Under the pieces are notes generated by a model that saw only the letters and a list, made by a program, of their open reading frames with translations, was not told the DNA's origin and searched no databases. This document shows positions 33,925 to 41,230 of a stretch of DNA of 64,000 nt, one piece after another. Both the position numbers and the translations under genes were made by a program. The stretch comes from Halolamina pelagica (lineage in GTDB: Archaea; Halobacteriota; Halobacteria; Halobacteriales; Haloferacaceae): NCBI RefSeq assembly GCF_001307315.1, contig NZ_LGUC01000001.1, forward strand, positions 2,294,001 to 2,358,000. The letters are read 5' to 3'. Each line of letters opens with the position of its first letter. The stretch's first letter is position 1.

Positions 33925-35042
33925 TCAGTCGGCCATCGGCGTCGACTCGGCGCCGGTTCGCTCAGTCGCTCCCGTACTGCCGAACTGCCCGGCCAGCCAG
34001 CGGTCGACGGAGTACGCGCCGCCGCCGGTGATCACCAGCACCGACACCAGGCCGAACAGCGAGACGTGCGCCATCACCGGGTCGTCCGGCAGCCCGAACA
34101 GCGTCGTGGTGAACATCGCGATCGCGACGCCGCAGCCGGCACGGGTGAACAGCCCCAGCGCGAGTGCGATCCCGAGCGCCATCTCCGTGAGCCCGGCGCC
34201 GACGACCCAGAGTTCGGGCGAGACGGGGACGACCGCGGTCAGGTCGTACTTCGCGACGACGCCGAGCGCCTGTCCGGGCATGAACAGCTTCTGGACGAGA
34301 CCGAGGTAGACGAACGACGCCCCCAGCCCGACCCGGACGATCACCGGGACGAGATCGGCCCGGGTCGCCAGGCGCTCGCCGAGCGGTGCCAGCGACTCCC
34401 GCACGGGGTCGAACCGCTGGTAGGCGGTTCCCTCGGCGGCCGAGAGCCGTGCGAACACGTCGTCCGCGCTGGGACGGCCGCCCCGAGGACGAGGATCGCG
34501 AGAAACCCGGGGACGTACTCGAGTGCCAGCAACAGCGCGGGGCTGAACGCCAGTCCCACGACGTAGCCGACGAGGCCCGCAAGCGCCGCGAGCCGGGTGG
34601 CGAAGCCGAACACGAGCAGGAAGCCGACACCGATGCCGTACAGCCGGATCAGCGGCCCCGGCAGGCCGAGCAGGTCGGCGGTCGCGGCCGGTGAGAACAG
34701 ATAGCCGGTGAAGCCCGCACCGACCATGGGGAGCCCGATCGCGAGTCGGGCGAGCCACGGCACCAGGTCGTCGTAGCTCTCGAGCATCGTTCGGAGCACC
34801 GCGAGGTCTGCGCGGAGCGGCCGGTAGCTGAGCCAGCCGGCGCCCGCGGCGGCGGCGCCGATGCCGCCGCCGCCGAGCAGCGCGAGCGCGAGAGGGTCCG
34901 ACGCGACCGCGCCGAGCAGTTCGGCGGCCCGTCCAGCCCCTTCACTGGGGGTCACGTATCGAACGTGTGCCAGCACCCGGCCCGGAACCACGGCGAGCAG
35001 CGTGCCCACTACGAGCGCCGCGGATGTGGTGTGTCGCGTCAT
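33925..35042 (-). CDS. DoxX-like membrane protein with N-terminal signal segment (frame broken near 34480)
   Basis: About 372 residues after correction. It begins MTRHTTSAALVVGTLLAVVP and VLAHVRYVTPSEGAG, then has two blocks of four helices resembling DoxX/quinol-oxidase-like proteins: ARLAIGLPMVGAGFTGYLFS and VIVRVGLGASFVYLGLVQKL. The frame breaks near 34480: one extra C in the minus-strand CCC run restores VLGAAVPSADDVFARLS. A duplicated DoxX layout with a signal-like start suggests an exported-facing redox or metal-related membrane protein; no haem or quinone site can be assigned. The start codon lies inside a 9-bp inverted repeat. Confidence 0.8.
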
Positions 35043-35051
35043 ACCACATCC
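35022..35051 (-). promoter_or_regulatory. 9-bp inverted repeat enclosing the DoxX start codon
   Basis: GGATGTGGT and ACCACATCC (35022-35030 and 35043-35051) flank a 12-base loop that contains the ATG directly after the upstream arm. In the mRNA this gives a hairpin with the start codon in the loop. It could limit translation or be a protein-binding operator. Confidence 0.45.
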
Positions 35052-35117
35052 CTGTTTCCGGAACGGGAAAGCTCGTTCCCCCGTACCACTTTGTCGCCGG
35101 CAGACACAGCCCCAACC

Positions 35118-35318
35118 ATGCCGACCCGACGGTGTCCGGACTGTGGCGTGACGATGGAGGAGGCGACGACGCGAACCTCCGACGGGTTCGAACTCCACCT
35201 GGTGACGGACGAACCCAAAGATGGGCTCTTGGGGACGCTCGGTGCCAAAGAGAAGCTGAAACCGACGACGTACGTCTGCCCGGAGTGCGGGCTCGTCCGG
35301 CAGTACGTGGACACGTAG
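35118..35318 (+). CDS. zinc-ribbon protein
   Basis: A 66-residue protein with two zinc knuckles, RRCPDCGVTME near the start and YVCPECGLVRQYVD at the end, separated by about 40 residues containing a Leu/Gly-rich loop (DGLLGTLGAKEKLK). This matches the small nucleic-acid-binding or partner zinc ribbons common in archaea (COG3478-like). Divergent from the DoxX-like gene. It ends about 25 bp before the 74-bp tandem repeats. Confidence 0.8.
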   Translation: MPTRRCPDCGVTMEEATTRTSDGFELHLVTDEPKDGLLGTLGAKEKLKPTTYVCPECGLVRQYVDT

Positions 35319-35342
35319 CGTCGACGCCGGCGAAGGGTTGCC

Positions 35343-35564
35343 ACGATCACGGCAACAGGCTCCGTCGCCGCGGCACAGCGGCCGCGGCGGGTCGCGAGCC
35401 CTCACTGGTTATACACACGATCACGGCAACAGGCTCCGTCGCCGCGGCACAGCGGCCGCGGCGGGTCGCGAGCCCTCACTGGTTATACACACGATCACGG
35501 CAACAGGCTCCGACGCCGCGGCACAGTGGCCGCGGCGGGTCGCGAGCCGTGATCGGCTAGACGT
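35343..35564. repeat. three tandem 74-bp hairpin repeats
   Basis: Units begin at 35343, 35417 and 35491. The first two are identical over 74 bp; the third has two substitutions (T to A and C to T) and then diverges in its last 15 bp, where it overlaps the archease stop. Each unit has a conserved start (ACGATCACGGCAACAGGCTC), a hairpin CGCCGCGGC-ACAGCG-GCCGCGGCG and the conserved GGGTCGCGAGCC. Related copies are at 37659-37766 and 39112-39310. The array lies between two convergent genes. Confidence 0.9.
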
Positions 35565-35985
35565 CGAACACGACGTACGCCTCCCACCCCCCGTCGACGC
35601 GCTCGAGGCTCATCTCCGAGTAGGTCACTGCCTTCACGTCGCGGGCGACGACCGCCGAGAGCGGCACCGCGCGGTAGCTTCCGTCGACGGTCCACTCGCC
35701 GTTCTCCTCGACACTGGCCGCGTTGTCGACTGGAAGCACCGCTCGCACGTCGCGTTCGTAGATCAGCTCGTCCAGGTAGTCGTACAGCACCGCTTCGGGG
35801 CTCTCCGCGACGACCCGAATTTCGGTGCGCTCGCCGCCGTCGGGCGCGTCGGCCGCCGGCCAGTCGTCACACATCGCCGCCGTGAGCCCGTCGGCGACGG
35901 CTGCGAACGTCGCGCCGAGGTCGGCGCCGGTCGCCTCGACGGCGACGTCGGCGGTGTGCTCTTTGAGCGTGAACTCGGCCATCAT
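35557..35985 (-). CDS. archease
   Basis: A 142-residue archease, the partner that speeds RtcB guanylylation and turnover. It has the family start FTLKEHTADVAVEATGADLG with the metal-binding acidic and histidine residues, the middle LYDYLDELIYERDV, and the end ALSGAVxAxDV-like stretch VVARDVKAVTYSEMSLE. The ATG lies in ATGATG overlapping the DUF502 stop, so it is translated with that gene. RtcB is encoded nearby on the same strand. Confidence 0.93.
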   Translation of the reverse strand: MMAEFTLKEHTADVAVEATGADLGATFAAVADGLTAAMCDDWPAADAPDGGERTEIRVVAESPEAVLYDYLDELIYERDVRAVLPVDNAASVEENGEWTVDGSYRAVPLSAVVARDVKAVTYSEMSLERVDGGWEAYVVFDV

Positions 35986-37180
35986 GGCTCCTCGTTGGCG
36001 TCTGCCGCCGGCTGGTCGTCGCTCGATTCCGGATCGCCGTCCTCGGGGTCGGCCGTCCCGTCGCCGTCCGCCGGCTCCCGGCCGGCGGCGGCCGCCGGCG
36101 GCTGGTCGGTCGAGTCGCGCGCCTCGGCCGCTCGGTCGGCCGCCGCCGCAGGGCGCTGTTCGGTCTCCTCGGCCTCGGTGGGGTAGCGGCCTGCCTCCTC
36201 AGCGGGGGGGACGTTCGCCCGCTGGGCGTCCGTGGCGTGGGCGTGAGCCCGCGGCGTCGTCGCGTCGGCATCGCCGGCCGCCGGGCGCTCACGCCGAGCG
36301 ATGTCCTCGGGCGTCGTCGCCCGGCGAGGGTGGACCGACTCGTCGTAGGTTTCGGCGCGATCAGTGGCGACCGGCTCCGATCGGCGAACGCCCGGCGAGT
36401 CCCGCTCCGGGTTGAACTGCTGATCGGCGTACTCGGCGCCGGCGAGATCGCGCATCGCCGCCGCCGACAGCCCACCAGTGCCGGTTTGGGAGCCGCCTTC
36501 GACGGCGACGCCGCTGGTGACGATGGCGCGGATCCCCTCCTCGACGGTCATGTCTACGTCCATCACGCGGTCGGCGGGCATGTGCACCAGGTGCCCGCCC
36601 ATCACGGGGTTCGGTGCGAGCGGGAGAAACAGCGTGAGCATCTCGGGGTGGCCCGCCGGCTCGGCGAGGGTGTCCGGCGTCTCGGTGGTGACAAACCCCA
36701 GCGTGTACGCGCCCTCGTGAGGGAACTCGACGAGTTTTACCTCCCGGAAGCTCTGGGTGTCCGACTCCAGCATCACGTCACTCATCTGTCGGAACGACTC
36801 GTAGACGCCGCCGACGGCGGGGATCTGAGAGATGAAGTAGTCGAAGTAGTTCACCGCGCGTTCGCCCCACTTGGTGGTGTTAGTGAACACGCCGACCACC
36901 ATGATGACCACCAGCAGGACCGCCGGCGTGGCGAGCTGGATGACGACGAGTCCGACGGGAATGTCGCCGTACACCGGGATGTTCACCAGATCGCCGGCGT
37001 CGATGATCCCCGCGCGAGGATCGTGAGGTAGTTGTAGACGTACTGGAACGCGATCGCCAGCACGATGACCGTGACCAGCACCGGCACGACGACCGCCAGC
37101 CCCGTGACGAACGACTCACGGAGCGTCTCCCGAGTCGACTTCCGGACGCGCTGGTCCATCCGCAGCTCCGACTCGTCCAT
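35982..37180 (-). CDS. DUF502 membrane protein with long acidic tail (frame broken near 37018)
   Basis: About 399 residues after correction. Two membrane segments, SFVTGLAVVVPVLVTVIVLA and VVIQLATPAVLLVVIMVV, are followed by the DUF502 core with VYESFRQMSDVMLE and FVTTETPDTL. The frame breaks at about 37018; one extra G in the GGGG run gives RGIIDAGDLVNIPVYG. The last 150 residues are low-complexity, rich in Ala, Asp, Glu, Pro and Arg, probably disordered. DUF502 proteins have no settled function. The stop overlaps the archease start. Confidence 0.85.
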
Positions 37181-37286
37181 TCGTGCGCACCAACGCAGTG
37201 ACCCAGGCTAAACCCTTCGGCCACGACGGTCCGCCGCCGTCGGGACGCCCACCACGCTTTCCCTCGCGCGCGCCGATTGGGGAGGT

Positions 37287-37646
37287 ATGGCCATCCTAGA
37301 CGGACTGATCGTCGGCGTCGTCAGCCTGCTCGTCGGCGCGCTCGCGATCCACATCGGCGCCAAGCTCGTGCTACAGAAAGAGCCGGCGTTCGGGAACGCG
37401 GTGACCGCTGCGGCCGTCGGAGCGCTGGTGTACGCCCTGTTCGGCTTCATCAGCGCTATTCCGGCTATCGGGCCGGTGCTGCTACTGCTGCTGTGGATCG
37501 GCGTCGTGAACTGGCGCTACCCCGGTGGTTGGCTCCGCGCCGCGGGGATCGGCTTCGCCGCGTGGCTGGCGGCGATCGTGCTGCTGTGGATCCTCTCCGT
37601 CGCGAACCTCGTCGAGGTGTCCGCACTCGGTATCCCCGGCGTCTGA
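37287..37646 (+). CDS. four-helix membrane protein, unrecognised
   Basis: A 119-residue protein almost entirely hydrophobic: LIVGVVSLLVGALAIHIGAK, AVTAAAVGALVYALFGFI, PAIGPVLLLLLWIGVV and AAGIGFAAWLAAIVLLWIL, with short polar loops such as LQKEPAFGN and NWRYPGG. Start ATG 37287 gives the compact N-terminus MAILDGL. It is divergent from the DUF502 gene and convergent with the nitroreductase, separated from it by hairpin repeats. No family is recognised. Confidence 0.72.
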   Translation: MAILDGLIVGVVSLLVGALAIHIGAKLVLQKEPAFGNAVTAAAVGALVYALFGFISAIPAIGPVLLLLLWIGVVNWRYPGGWLRAAGIGFAAWLAAIVLLWILSVANLVEVSALGIPGV

Positions 37647-37658
37647 GATCGAAAAGGG

Positions 37659-37766
37659 GGCCGCGGCGGGTCGCTGGCCGCAGTTGGCTACTGCACGACC
37701 ACAGCGGGGGCTCCGCGGTCGCGGCACGACGGCCGCGACGGGTCGCGAGCCGTGGCCGGCTATTGC
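37659..37766. repeat. hairpin repeat, half copy plus full copy
   Basis: The right half of a unit (GCCGCGGCGGGTCGC, from 37660) is followed by a full 72-bp unit from 37695. The full unit keeps the ends of the 35343 family but changes the stem to GTCGCGGC-ACGACG-GCCGCGAC (37718-37739); both arms change together. It lies between convergent genes. Confidence 0.8.
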
Positions 37767-37771
37767 CCCGC

Positions 37772-38446
37772 CTAGTGCTCGGCCACCGCCTCGTCGTCGA
37801 GTTCGGCCGCGGTCGGCTCGAACGTCTCGCGATGGACGATATCCTCGACGGAGCGGCGGAACTTCCGAGGGGTGGTCGTGTCCTGAGCGTTCGCCGCCGC
37901 GTGACCCATCGTCACCAGCATCACCGGTTCGTACTGGTCGTCGATGTCGAACGCCGCCTGCAGCGCCTCGCCGTCGAAGCCGCCGACGGGACAGGTCGAC
38001 AGCCCCTCGGCGCGGGCGGCGTGCATCAGCGTCATCCCCGCCAGCGCCGTGCTGCGGGTGGTCCAGAGCCGGTTCTCGCGCTCCCCGCGCTCGGCCATCC
38101 CGTCGATCGTCTCGATCAGTCCCGCCTTGGCCTCCTCGTTGGGGAGGTACCCTTTCCGGAGCTGGTCCTCGGCGACCGCCTCGGCGTGCGCGCTGGGGTC
38201 GGTGTTACCCAGCACCGCGACGGCCACCGGCGCGTCGGTGACGTGCTCCTGGCCGTACGCGACCTCCTTGAGCCGCTCGCGGTTCTCGTCCTCGGTCAGC
38301 ACGAGGAACTCCCACGGCTGGAGGTTGTAGCTGGAGGGGCTGTACCGAACCTGCTCGAAAACGGCCTCGATGGTGGCGTCGTCGACCGGCTCGTCGCTGT
38401 ACTCGTGGACGCTGCGGCGGGTCTGGACGGCCTCGTCGAACTCCAT
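37772..38446 (-). CDS. nitroreductase family flavoprotein
   Basis: FMN-dependent oxidoreductase of 224 residues. The N-terminal RRSVHEYSDEPVDD and YSPSSYNLQPWEFLVL are the FMN-binding start of the nitroreductase family. The middle has HAARAEGLSTCPVGGFD and LVTMGHAAANAQ, typical of NfsA/NfnB-like enzymes. It reduces nitro compounds, quinones or other flavin acceptors; the physiological substrate is unknown. A TATA box 27 bp before the ATG implies a leaderless transcript. Confidence 0.92.
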   Translation of the reverse strand: MEFDEAVQTRRSVHEYSDEPVDDATIEAVFEQVRYSPSSYNLQPWEFLVLTEDENRERLKEVAYGQEHVTDAPVAVAVLGNTDPSAHAEAVAEDQLRKGYLPNEEAKAGLIETIDGMAERGERENRLWTTRSTALAGMTLMHAARAEGLSTCPVGGFDGEALQAAFDIDDQYEPVMLVTMGHAAANAQDTTTPRKFRRSVEDIVHRETFEPTAAELDDEAVAEH

Positions 38447-38468
38447 ACCCGTTAGAGGCCGTTCGAGG

Positions 38469-38491
38469 TTTAATACTTGTCGAGTAACTCG
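38469..38491 (-). promoter_or_regulatory. nitroreductase promoter with adjacent palindrome
   Basis: The minus strand reads GTATTAAA (38469-38476), centred 27 bp before the ATG. Just upstream is the perfect odd palindrome CGAGTAACTCG (38481-38491), positioned where a regulator or TFB contact could modulate the promoter. Confidence 0.5.
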
Positions 38492-38549
38492 TAATTAGGT
38501 CACTGCGGCGTCAGCGGGTGACGCCGCCGTTACCGTCGTGTCGTCGGCC

Positions 38550-38990
38550 TCACCGGACGACGGTGACCGGAATCGGCGACTCGCGAACGACCTTCTCGGC
38601 GACGCTGCCGAGCAGCATGCGCGAGACGCCGGTGCGGCCGTGGCTCCCGATCACGACGTGGTCGTACGTGGGCGCGTCGACATCCTCGCTTTCGCCGCCG
38701 GCGACGTTGACGATCGTCTGCGGCGGTCGTCCGACGGCCTTCTCGGTCCGGAACTCGATCCCGTACGTCTCGCGTGCCTCCGCGAACAGTTCGTCGGCGT
38801 CGGCCTGGGCCTGCTCGAACCACTCCTCGCCGCCGCTGGGGATGCCGACGCCGGCGCTGTAGCCGGCCTCGACGGGGTTGATGACGTACAGCAGCGTGAT
38901 CTCGTGGGCACCCCACTCCTCGACGGCGAACTCGAGAGCGTCTTCGGCCTGGGGCGTCCCGTCGTACGCGACGAGTATGCGGTCGGTCAT
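38550..38990 (-). CDS. universal stress protein UspA family
   Basis: A 146-residue single-domain UspA protein: start RILVAYDGTPQAEDALEFAV and the ATP-binding signature GSHGRTGVSRMLLGSVAEKV with the G-2x-G-9x-GS/T pattern. ATP binding is therefore likely. Preceded by a TATA-like box at the leaderless distance. It follows the hairpin repeats downstream of herA. Confidence 0.92.
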   Translation of the reverse strand: MTDRILVAYDGTPQAEDALEFAVEEWGAHEITLLYVINPVEAGYSAGVGIPSGGEEWFEQAQADADELFAEARETYGIEFRTEKAVGRPPQTIVNVAGGESEDVDAPTYDHVVIGSHGRTGVSRMLLGSVAEKVVRESPIPVTVVR

Positions 38991-39013
38991 GGGTGTGCGT
39001 TCGGGGGCTTCCG

Positions 39014-39020
39014 TAAAAAA
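39014..39020 (-). promoter_or_regulatory. TATA-like box of the UspA gene
   Basis: The minus strand reads TTTTTTA, centred about 27 bp before the ATG at 38990. It is the only AT-rich block in this GC-rich gap. Confidence 0.45.
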
Positions 39021-39111
39021 CGAGGTGGCGCGGTTGGCGGGTCGGCGGGGTGGTCACACCCTACCTCCTCGGCGGCGGCCGTCGTCGTCCACTCACCGTA
39101 GTTGGAGACAC

Positions 39112-39310
39112 ACAGCCACGGCAATCGGTCCGTCGCCGGCCACGGAGGCCTCGGCCGACCGCGAGCCCGGGGGTTCTACACGGTCACGGCAAACGCTCCG
39201 AGCGCCGATCCGAAGATCGGCGCCGGTTGCGAGCCGTCTGGTGTTACTCCCGTGTCTGGTGACACACAGACACGGCATTCGTTCCGTCGTCGCGCGACGG
39301 AGCGCGTGAC
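39112..39310. repeat. three diverged hairpin repeats
   Basis: Units start near 39112, 39180 and 39265; each has the core CACGGCAA/T followed by a TCCG block. Stems differ but stay paired: unit 2 GCGCCGATC-CGAA-GATCGGCGC (39202-39223), unit 3 CCGTCG-TCGCG-CGACGG (39284-39300); unit 1 has a longer, bulged stem (about 39132-39160). Same family as 35343 and 37659. It lies between herA and the UspA gene. Confidence 0.7.
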
Positions 39311-39313
39311 AGG

Positions 39314-41142
39314 TCAGTCGCCGTGTCTTGTGACACACTCGCTCAGGCCGATCAGCTCCACCGGCTCGGAGTTGTCCGGCGAGTACACCACCATCTGCCC
39401 CTTCTCCATGTACGGCACCTTCTGGGCCAGTTGGCTCGGGATGTTCACCGACGAGATCGCGTCCTCGTCGCCGAGGTTGAGCACGATCTTCGTGTTCACC
39501 TGCTTGAACACCGGTTCCGCAATGTCCTGTGGGTCCTGCGTGATGAGGAACAGCCCCAGTCGCTCCTTCCGGCCCTGTTTGGCGGCCTCGGTGAACTTCT
39601 GGACCACCTTCCGCGCCTGCACGGTGTCGGCCTCCGAGAGGAAGTTGTGCGCCTCGTCCATCCCCAGCACCAGCGGCGTCTCCTTGATGCGCTGGCTCTG
39701 CGGTGAGTTCGAGAGCTTGTCGTCGACGAGCAGCGACGACACCGCGAGCACGAACATCTCCTTCGCCCGCGAGGTCGAGAGGTGGTACGTCGGCACGACC
39801 GTCAGCCCGCCCGGCCGGACGAGTTCGTGGTCCAACTCGGTGATCGGACGCGCGTCCTGGTCGAAGATGCCGTTGGGAATCCCCCGAACCCGGCGCTTGA
39901 CGGCGTCGAACGTGGCCTCGTGGACGCGGCCGGACTCGTGGAGCTCCTCCTGCAGCCCCGGGTCGTCGAGATAGGTCAGGAACTGCTGGTAGGTGCCGCT
40001 CTGTCCGTAGTCGCTGAAGAACCGGTTGAGCAGGGTGAGCAGCGCCGGATACTGGTTGTCGTTCAGGCCGCCGCCGGCGACGAGCCACGGCATGTCGTAC
40101 TCGTCGACGACCGAGAACGGGATCGTGAACCGCACCTGCTCGGCGCGGTGGTTCTCGCCGCCGTAGCTCACGCCGTCCTCGACGGGGACGAGCGCGATCG
40201 TGTCGTCGTGGCCGCCGTGGGCGATCCCCTCCCGATCGAGCTGGCGGGCGAACTGGTCGCTCATCCCCGGGTTGTCGTCGTGCATCTGGGCGTACTCGTC
40301 CTGCGGGTCGAACTGCACGACGGCGGGGAGACCTCCCGGCCGTCGTCCATCGGGTACGTCCGGTCCTCCGCGAGGTACTGCCGCAGCACGTTCTTCGAGG
40401 CGTGGGTCTTCCCCGAGCCCGTGCCGCCGGCCACGAGCGTGTGCCGGAACACGAGCGGGTCGCCGTCGGCGTACTCGTCCTTCACGCGGTAGTCGACCGT
40501 CGGCGGCTCAGCGGCGGTGCGGACCTTCTCGCCCCCGACGGAGAGGTGGCCGAGGAACACCCCGTCGCCGGGGATCTTCAGGCCGGTTTTGATCTGTGCC
40601 TCGTCGGACGCTTCGCGGGCGAGCGCGCCCGGCTTGGGCACGCGGTCGGTCATCCGTCGTTTGAGCTCGCCGCCCTCCTCGTAGATGACCGCCACGGGCT
40701 CCAACTCGGCCATGAACTTGTAGTCCCGCTCCTCGAACCCCTCGCGGCGCATCTGCCGGCGCGCGTGGATCTCGGTGGCGTCGTCGGACTGGAACTCCTG
40801 GGCGTACTCCAGCGCGGCGATGGAGCAGAACAGGGTCTCGTCGTCGGGGTACGGGACGAGCAGGTAGCTCCCCAGCCGGACCGAGTCACGGTTCCCGGTG
40901 GTGATGAACGCCCGCAGCCGCGTCTCGTCGCCGTCCTGGGAAACGCGCAGCCCCTGGGAGACGGAGACGGTTCCGAGCCCCTGGTCGGCGCCGGCGGCCT
41001 CCGTGCCGTAGCGCTCGAACTCGGCCGCCGTGTCGGCCGCCTCGGCCGGGGCGTCGTCGCTCGCGTCGGCGGCCGAGGCGTCGTCGTCGCCCCCGCTGCC
41101 CGCGTAGTCGGTGAAGTCGCCAAGATCGCCCGAATCGCTCAT
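39314..41142 (-). CDS. herA: HerA-type DNA-translocating ATPase (frame broken near 40325)
   Basis: About 609 residues after correction. The N-terminus (MSDSGDLGDFTDYAGSG, then an acidic Ala/Asp stretch) leads to a HAS-barrel-like domain (SYLLVPYPDDETLFCSI), Walker A VAGGTGSGKTHASKN, and in the second half Walker B PLVLGMDEAHNFL with sensor LGLFLITQDPQDIAEPVF and arginine-bearing VNTKIVLNLGDEDA. The frame breaks at about 40325: one extra C on the minus strand joins REVSPAVVQFDPQDEY. HerA forms hexamers with NurA for DNA end resection; nurA is encoded 1.75 kb away on the same strand, with two plus-strand genes between. Confidence 0.9.
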
Positions 41143-41230
41143 GCGCCGGACGTGGGCGGCTCTCGGCATACACCTTTCCCTGCGGCGCCGCGGGCACCAC
41201 CCCTAAAGGCGCCGACCGACTAGCCAGTGT

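Follow-up and report, generated by a model that had tools for sequence, protein, structure and literature searches.

A dispersed hairpin repeat at stop codons of the archaeal genus Halolamina, with pairing that appears to be kept at the DNA level

Introduction

Repeats of the repetitive extragenic palindromic (REP) type are known mainly from bacteria and are tied to a Y1 transposase. In the available text of one account they measure 20-40 bp, their usual place is near the stop codon on the 3' side of a gene, where the gap is convergent or co-directional, and the ends of GTAG-REPs often supply the TAG stop codon (PMC3733652). According to the accessible part of another, recognition is strand-specific and is directed at the folded hairpin with its conserved unpaired features (PMC8266576). 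In many REP families neighbouring copies stand in opposite orientation. Here we describe a hairpin repeat found at three intergenic loci of a 64,000-nt stretch of the Halolamina pelagica genome (contig NZ_LGUC01000001.1, positions 2,294,001 to 2,358,000; this whole stretch is called the window below). The Halolamina family is archaeal and sits at stop codons with base precision. With a probability of roughly 0.6, it is a genus-level dispersed DNA hairpin repeat, REP-like and stop-anchored, whose pairing is maintained at the DNA level.

Folded single-strand sites are also known from integrons. Their attC sites lie behind stop codons, have conserved arms and a free middle, and are used by a tyrosine recombinase. 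Among the Y1 elements, the available text of a survey of complete genomes names the IS200 type (IS, insertion sequence) as the only subclass seen in Archaea (PMC6006769). No description of a repeat such as this one in Halolamina was found in the open literature, a search that did not cover most subscription journals. No word beginning with 'halo' stands in the main text of a 2025 paper that surveys bacterial and archaeal REPs (PMC12306157).

A genus-level family of two-stemmed units

In an alignment of 20 units from H. pelagica itself (genome G000, Haloferacaceae; assembly rated 79.9% complete) the repeat unit is 71 nt long, has two stems and usually recurs in tandem with a period of about 72. 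On the strand read in a preliminary description of the window the consensus is ACAC-RRYCACGGC-(AtcaC)GCTCCgt-[inner stem 8 bp]-ACGGAG-[inner stem]-nGGTCRCGA-GCCGTGRYY-GGYTA. The GGYTA end is the reverse complement of a stop codon, and the sense strand, meaning that of the gene which the unit follows, is therefore the reverse complement of the unit first described. This is the biologically sensible strand. Read in sense, the unit opens with the foot TAR-CC. Nine pairs form its outer stem (RRYCACGGC/GCCGTGRYY), and these lead to an asymmetric internal loop that is conserved (approximately NNGYGACC 5' and ACGGAGC 3') and then to an inner stem whose sequence is free and whose complementarity is near-perfect. 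The apical loop has CTCCGT as its commonest form (ACGGAG on the opposite strand), in 90 of 213 distinct units. The preliminary description had recognised the central stem and missed the outer one. It had also treated GGGTCGCGAGCC as a single element; this divides into GGTCGCGA, which is one side of the internal loop, and GCC, which is the foot of the outer stem.

Copies were searched with two covariance models, R1 built from own-genome units and R2 from 138 matches. With R1 at E 0.1, H. pelagica has 75 matches in 41 clusters, 19 of them single and 22 of two to four units, and just one cluster lies inside a called gene. At E 0.001 all seven Halolamina genomes are positive (70, 16, 60, 62, 98, 70 and 63 matches in G000 to G006), and the same search found no match in 33 further genomes from outside the genus. 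R2, run with stricter filters over 292 genomes of the class, matched the seven genus genomes and three of the 285 others, one match each, two of which fall inside called genes. Both models derive from Halolamina units and would overlook more distant families. R2 confirmed only five of 17 pattern matches in genome contigs, in Halolamina rubra and H. pelagica, and at E 0.01 none of nine viral contigs that matched a short pattern. One 148-nt query found nothing in plasmid and phage records at E 0.01. The further copies that a covariance-model search of haloarchaeal genomes was expected to reveal are thus there, 75 at home and 16-98 per congener, with near-absence elsewhere. The hairpin family is a genus-level, non-coding, dispersed repeat, far larger than the seven units of the window. 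On C1, the main contig of the H. pelagica genome, the stretches at about 1.59-2.06 Mb and 0-0.28 Mb are without model matches, which are spread elsewhere on C1.

Placement at stop codons

Placement was examined in 106 clusters of three genomes. These were formed with a 300-nt joining rule and E limits of 0.1 (G000, R1) and 0.01 (G003 and G005, R2), and the counts depend on both; genes were called with a simple script of our own, not with a published gene finder. In 72 of the 106 (27/41, 20/33 and 25/32) the array abuts the stop of the upstream gene, reading TAR-CC-RRYCACGGC... from there. If arrays were placed and oriented at random, each within the gap of its cluster, 8.1 such cases would be expected, and the maximum in 20000 simulations was 17. 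A fourth genome agrees, with 8 of 13 examined clusters abutting a stop. Unlike the stop-side end, the far end of the arrays keeps no preferred distance to the neighbouring gene.

Arrays comprise one to five units, all head to tail; none of the 64 multi-unit clusters of the three genomes is mixed. Start-to-start distances are 64-90 nt, save for eight of 124-250 nt in G003 and G005, and there are no unique spacers between units of the kind that would mark a CRISPR array. The anchoring gene often takes the TAA or TAG foot of the unit as its stop. Is the foot then part of the gene or of the element? It belongs to the element, because units behind other units carry T-A-R-C-C too: in 90 such units T is kept in 47%, A in 64%, R in 90% and the two C positions in 90% and 79%, and a G precedes the foot in 48%. 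TAA is the stop of 39 of 78 unit-bearing genes, against 241 of 1466 called genes.

Among the anchoring genes of H. pelagica, 30 of 31 were scanned and 25 have a Pfam match. These include MutL, aconitase and archease as well as housekeeping genes for MCM, PCNA, L15e, A-type ATPase A, aIF6, pyrophosphatase and superoxide dismutase (SOD). A high-expression bias of anchoring genes was considered and dropped, their codon preference being not clearly raised (p 0.049, 0.22 and 0.29). The MCM and ATPase A calls beside other arrays match just the C-terminal part of their families.

Two of the loci in the window lie between convergent genes, and the preliminary description hinted on this ground at bidirectional terminators. 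The wider sample does contain 41 convergent clusters, and a hairpin in Haloferax volcanii ended 59% of transcripts, according to the available text of PMC7237163. The most frequent context is a different one: 51 of the 106 clusters are co-directional behind the anchoring gene, five are co-directional the other way and nine are divergent, one of these inside a called gene. Even in convergent gaps the array is tied to the end of just one gene, and the distance that remains to the opposite gene has a median of 44.5 nt (34 gaps). T-runs of at least four were found inside none of 47 co-directional arrays, and T4 follows within 80 nt downstream in 13 of these 47, compared with 55 of 222 ordinary gene ends. 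The array does not seem to replace the usual terminator, because downstream T-runs are as frequent here as at ordinary gene ends; any T-runs lie beyond the array, further downstream. That the repeats are bidirectional or intrinsic terminators of convergent genes is therefore improbable.

Evidence for the fold

That the stems covary, with pairing kept while sequence varies, holds for both stems in the own-genome alignments. In the 20-unit alignment the two-helix structure pairs 88.1% of cells, versus 74.6% after shuffling, and contains 67 double-change cells versus 20.8; none of 500 shuffles reaches either value. Sliding the structure by one to three columns leaves just 25.5-46.2% paired. An alignment of 76 distinct own-genome units, which had been fitted to the covariance model, gives 88.0% versus 70.0% paired and 320 versus 96.2 double-change cells (0/500 for both). 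Two of five covariation measures are weak, each in one test or the other: further pair types, counted alone, do not exceed the shuffles in the 20-unit set (30 versus 27.1, reached in 72/500), and pairs with any double change exceed them only marginally in the 76-unit set (17 versus 15.0, 45/500). From the 76-unit alignment RNAalifold predicted the inner stem unaided, with eight pairs and double changes in all of them; it did not predict the outer stem. Six units of the window were also folded singly and compared with shuffles. Three are far more stable (z -4.5, -4.2 and -4.0), one is moderately so (z -2.0) and two are not (z -0.65 and -0.54).

The preliminary description read this covariation as the signature of a selected structure. 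A structured, covarying intergenic family it is, but covariation alone is no proof of selection, because templated copying of one arm from the other would produce it too. The statement that no named family is known for the consensus agrees with Rfam 15, in which no covariance model matches over the units (window positions 34000-41000, E up to 1); the sole match there, snoZ206 at 34021-34093, has E 0.98, lies below the gathering score and is outside the units. Some further structural readings were dropped. For a pseudoknot between CTCCGT of the internal loop (preliminary strand) and ACGGAG of the apical loop, both exact motifs occur together in 19 of 186 units, with 21.1 expected; both loop motifs are conserved but without covariation, and the pseudoknot was therefore not adopted. 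Inspection by eye also led to the rejection of a kink-turn and of a bulge-helix-bulge.

Pairing in DNA or in RNA

A structured RNA should show G-U above A-C pairs on its functional strand. The stems of the Halolamina unit do not. Among 213 distinct units, Watson-Crick pairs make up 93.7% of the inner stem and 85.5% of the outer. Over the 3515 cells of the two stems, the strand of the preliminary description has 126 G-U pairs and the sense strand has 131 (p 0.80). In the acceptor and T stems of tRNAs in the same DNA there are 10 G-U pairs to 1 A-C (300 pairs; 25 of 27 tRNAs usable), and a further tRNA control gave 5 G-U and 0 A-C in 156 pairs. Since there is no wobble excess on either strand, unlike in tRNAs, the pairing looks maintained in DNA rather than RNA. 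The preliminary description had left the choice between an RNA and a DNA cruciform, and the evidence leans towards DNA. Pairing would be kept as a single-stranded DNA hairpin or a cruciform, beyond what templated arm copying alone would give, with the sense single strand as the probable recognised form; RNA may still have a part.

How might such arrays come to lie where they do? Perhaps they form when a folded single strand with a stop-like foot is copied or inserted, and would persist where that foot can stand in for the stop without changing the protein. Once there, the array may act on the gene end as a 3' hairpin. Its likely effect is to slow translation termination or to protect the mRNA end.

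The main competitor is a 3' untranslated region RNA element. In that reading the sense hairpin delays ribosomes at termination or keeps 3'-to-5' decay away from the mRNA end, and it is the RNA fold that is selected. An RNA function would equally explain why arrays sit exactly behind stop codons and always point in the sense direction. One pair in the internal loop looks like RNA on the sense strand (C-G 110, U-G 40, U-A 39, C-A 6). Several anchoring genes are housekeeping genes, and E. coli REPs at most 15 nt from a stop codon are reported to stall ribosomes, as stated in the available text of PMC12306157, which cites an earlier study. These points have to be set against the lack of a G-U excess in the stems, the clean absence of arrays at some orthologs (see below), the codon preference of the anchoring genes and the two window units that, folded alone, are no more stable than shuffles. 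An RNA element is the strongest of the alternatives and is still rather unlikely.

Inheritance and turnover

Arrays are shared between species in part. Among reciprocal-best ortholog pairs they stand at both members in 11, 12 and 9 cases and at one member in 7, 8 and 13, counts in which true absences are mixed with gene fragments, threshold effects and units outside the interval from -80 to +70. Individual loci can be read more closely. The archease gene has its array in four of seven genomes, G000, G003, G006 and G004 (in the last, two units directly before the gene's low end); by eye, G001 has a decayed array and G002 and G005 have none. The L15e gene carries units in six of the seven (in G001, 54 nt from the gene), and 22 L15e loci outside the genus gave no match at E 0.01 and one at E 0.09 (L262), which is not behind the gene. 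G005 also offers a clean empty site, where by eye only 5 nt separate a stop from the next, convergent stop and where G003 has a two-unit array. Arrays are thus found at the same genes across species and are cleanly present or absent at some, and part of these differences may be gains.

The two stems differ in what they retain. Between orthologous first units the outer arms are 0.82 identical, compared with 0.71 in random pairs. The inner stem is 0.47 identical in the 29 comparable of 32 orthologous pairs, the other three having no comparable inner stem, and this equals the 0.47 of 3000 random pairs; adjacent units within arrays reach 0.65 (96 pairs). The inner stem therefore separates inherited structure from inherited sequence, which makes it a natural case in which selection on RNA might be told apart from upkeep of a hairpin in DNA.

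One explanation for this turnover is that one arm serves as template for the other (quasi-palindrome correction) in tandem DNA under no other selection, with the covariation as a side effect. This would account for an inner stem that is so largely Watson-Crick while its sequence is as different between orthologs as between random units. It would also account for some adjacent or orthologous units that are 92-96% identical elsewhere and yet have changes in five or six of the eight inner pairs, with both arms altered in all or nearly all of these. The examples that involve distant units were selected out of all pairs. Where adjacent pairs at least 90% identical elsewhere are taken (n=19), 10 have no inner-stem difference and only two differ in six pairs. 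The conserved loop motifs, the outer arms, the exact stop anchoring and the shared genes need selection or targeting in any case. As a full explanation, arm copying in unselected DNA is unlikely. As the source of inner-stem change it could serve, as could compensating point changes near saturation, and synonymous and intergenic sites between these species may be close to that state. The identity of a copying agent would point to an unrecognised hairpin-processing activity in haloarchaea.

A second repeat was seen in the inner stem of several units, inserted in either orientation, and elsewhere in G003 too. It is about 56 nt long and has two hairpins (CCAGAACGC...GCGTTCTGG and AACGAGA...TCTCGTT) with a short linker.

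The herA-like gene as a possible founder site

One of the three loci in the window lies behind a herA-like gene, and here the unit overlaps the gene by 20 nt, as it does in three genomes; at a peptidase gene the conserved overlap is only 6 nt. The outer arm encodes the last codons (...RHGD/E-stop), and the reading frame ends at a TGA in the internal loop (39314-39316). In G003 the gene is complete (611 aa) and scores above the Pfam cut-offs for both DUF87 (HerA central domain) and HerA_C. Taken alone, the fragment in the window falls just under the cut-off (19.3 bits versus 22), and no NCBIfam HerA model reaches its cut-off with either. In the window the herA-like gene is split over two frames (39314-41169), and congeners have one long open frame. 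For this split and for the partial MCM and ATPase A calls, in an assembly rated 79.9% complete, the explanation is either indel errors or pseudogenes.

Outside the genus, 35 of 53 herA-like ends read CAC-GGN-GAN-stop and 16 exactly CACGGCGA(C/G)-TGA, so the tail is common without arrays. The only non-genus match outside called genes, among the 285 genomes, is a two-unit array behind the herA-like gene of another genus (G102). Of the 53 ends examined, repeated tails lie within 350 nt downstream in four genomes of three genera (G102, G310, G307 and G011), against a mean of 0.15 ends and a maximum of 2 in 500 runs of a shuffled control. Two of these loci (L290 in G307 and L315 in G011) have 36-nt mini-units that consist of the outer stem only and repeat the coding tail behind the gene. 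herA-like matches at contig edges were excluded (G022, and G308 as L287). The strict tail criterion undercounts, because it found a copy in just three of the seven genus genomes.

Since the last codons match the 5' arm of the unit, and since an array and repeated tails lie at the herA-like gene outside the genus, this 3' end is proposed as the founder site. Confidence is low to moderate, and the family may have begun here. A fuller scenario is more tentative and rather unlikely: a selfish DNA hairpin would have come from the coding tail, with the Arg-His-Gly-Glu/Asp-stop codons duplicated in tandem behind the herA-like gene in several genera. In Halolamina it would have gained a second stem and spread to dozens of stops, each replaced by the foot of the unit, with the inner stem rewritten again and again by arm copying; the fold would then be passed on while the sequence would not. 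A herA origin, if true, would be a rare traceable birth of a repeat family from coding sequence.

Points against a stop-anchored DNA hairpin

Besides the internal-loop pair and the placement that an RNA would share, several points weigh against the preferred reading of a stop-anchored DNA hairpin. By the criterion used, 34 of the 106 clusters do not abut a stop, and in some of these the gene caller took another frame or missed a short gene. The sample itself comprises all 41 clusters of G000, 33 of 34 of G003 and 32 of 36 of G005, and is thus incomplete in two genomes; a single unit on contig 2 of G005 is outside the list. The excess of TAA stops could reflect the kind of gene, not the unit. 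DNA-level pairing does not by itself account for the rare use of other positions in a gap. No spreading enzyme was found: the Y1 HUH transposase (PF01797), present in five of the seven genus genomes, has no match in G001 or in H. pelagica (79.9% complete), and reverse transcriptase PF00078 is in none of the seven, other candidates not having been searched. A diversity-generating retroelement target hairpin, also considered, was rejected on this last result. For the proposed founder site, the strict tail pattern occurs on the reverse strand of two of the 53 ends as well (L280 and L281).

The three loci in the window

The seven units of the preliminary description are all present at its three loci (Table 1). 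Its starts were at most 2 nt off; its end was further off, as the final unit stops at 39333 and not at 39310. The gene contexts also stand, with two convergent gaps and, as the third, a co-directional gap flanked by the herA-like gene and a Usp gene (Pfam Usp, E 3.5e-31). The final three bases of the first archease-side unit (35557-35559) are the TAG stop of the archease gene on the minus strand. At the nitroreductase locus 9 nt separate the stop codon from the unit, whose own foot is again TAG-CC.

Table 1. Repeat units and anchoring genes in the window (three units at 35341-35559, half plus full unit at 37659-37690 and 37693-37762, three units at 39110-39333) and positions of the second repeat. 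Strand is the sense strand of the anchoring gene.
Feature	Position	Strand	Evidence
Hairpin unit, distal of three behind archease gene	35341..35411	-	R1 77.1 bits, R2 70.5 bits
Hairpin unit, middle of three behind archease gene	35415..35485	-	R1 80.1 bits
Hairpin unit, first behind archease stop codon	35489..35559	-	R1 90.8 bits
Anchoring gene 1: archease family protein, 141 aa	35557..35982	-	Pfam PF01951 E 2.2e-29; orthologs in 7/7 genus genomes
Half unit, one arm only	37659..37690	-	Repeat search, 81% to reference copy; not reported by R1/R2
Hairpin unit behind nitroreductase gene	37693..37762	-	R1 67.1 bits
Anchoring gene 2: nitroreductase family protein, 224 aa	37772..38446	-	Pfam PF00881 E 1.8e-30
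Hairpin unit, distal of three behind herA-like gene	39110..39176	-	R1 48.1 bits
Hairpin unit, middle of three behind herA-like gene	39178..39246	-	R1 60.9 bits
Hairpin unit overlapping herA-like 3' end by 20 nt	39264..39333	-	R1 72.4 bits
Anchoring gene 3: HerA-like ATPase gene, C-terminal part; reading frame interrupted in the assembly	39314..40318	-	Orthologs 93-96% identical in six congeners
About 56-nt two-hairpin repeat	L148:9977-10101, L185:9991-10118, L187:9869-9995, L197:9866-9991, L198:9925-10050		

Comparison with known systems

The attC sites resemble the Halolamina unit in lying behind a stop in gene orientation, in their conserved outer arms and free inner sequence, and in pairing at the DNA level. 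A reading of the units as attC-type recombination sites, folded single strands used by a tyrosine recombinase, is nevertheless very improbable. Up to five units stand behind one gene without intervening genes, the loci are scattered over the chromosome, and many of the Pfam-matched anchoring genes are housekeeping genes and not cassettes. Unlike in integrons, no cassette arrays were seen; no search for an integron integrase was made.

The hairpins associated with RNA 3' ends in Haloferax volcanii are likewise haloarchaeal and near 3' ends (PMC7237163). In the available text of that report they are described neither as a repeat family nor as anchored to stops, and the Halolamina arrays are without a T-run. 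The ends of IS200/IS605 elements, which use a Y1 HUH enzyme, are likewise recognised as single-stranded hairpins. One IS200/IS605-like element with a Y1 transposase, at L102:1480-2080 (G005 contig 2), lies directly against the outer stem of a unit; the element adjoins the unit and does not use it as an end. The Y1 transposase was considered as a partner and rejected, with a clear unit at only one of 15 Y1 loci examined (19 matches listed).

This leaves the REP repeats as the closest parallel. In contrast to them, the Halolamina unit is 71 nt long, has two stems and an inner stem of free sequence, and resides in an archaeal host. Its foot is T-A-R-C-C, with no GTAG/CGTC tag, and its arrays run head to tail only (0/64 mixed), unlike the bacterial interspersed mosaic elements (BIMEs) that REPs form. 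The family is not filed as REP because the tag, the alternating orientation and, in its own genome, the Y1 transposase are all missing. What it shares with bacterial REPs is the dispersal of intergenic palindromes at high copy (75 matches in 41 clusters in H. pelagica), the position 3' of genes, the strand specificity and the capacity to provide the stop codon, as it may at the 72 of 106 clusters that abut one. The Halolamina family is thus of the same general kind as the bacterial REP repeats, yet no member of them.

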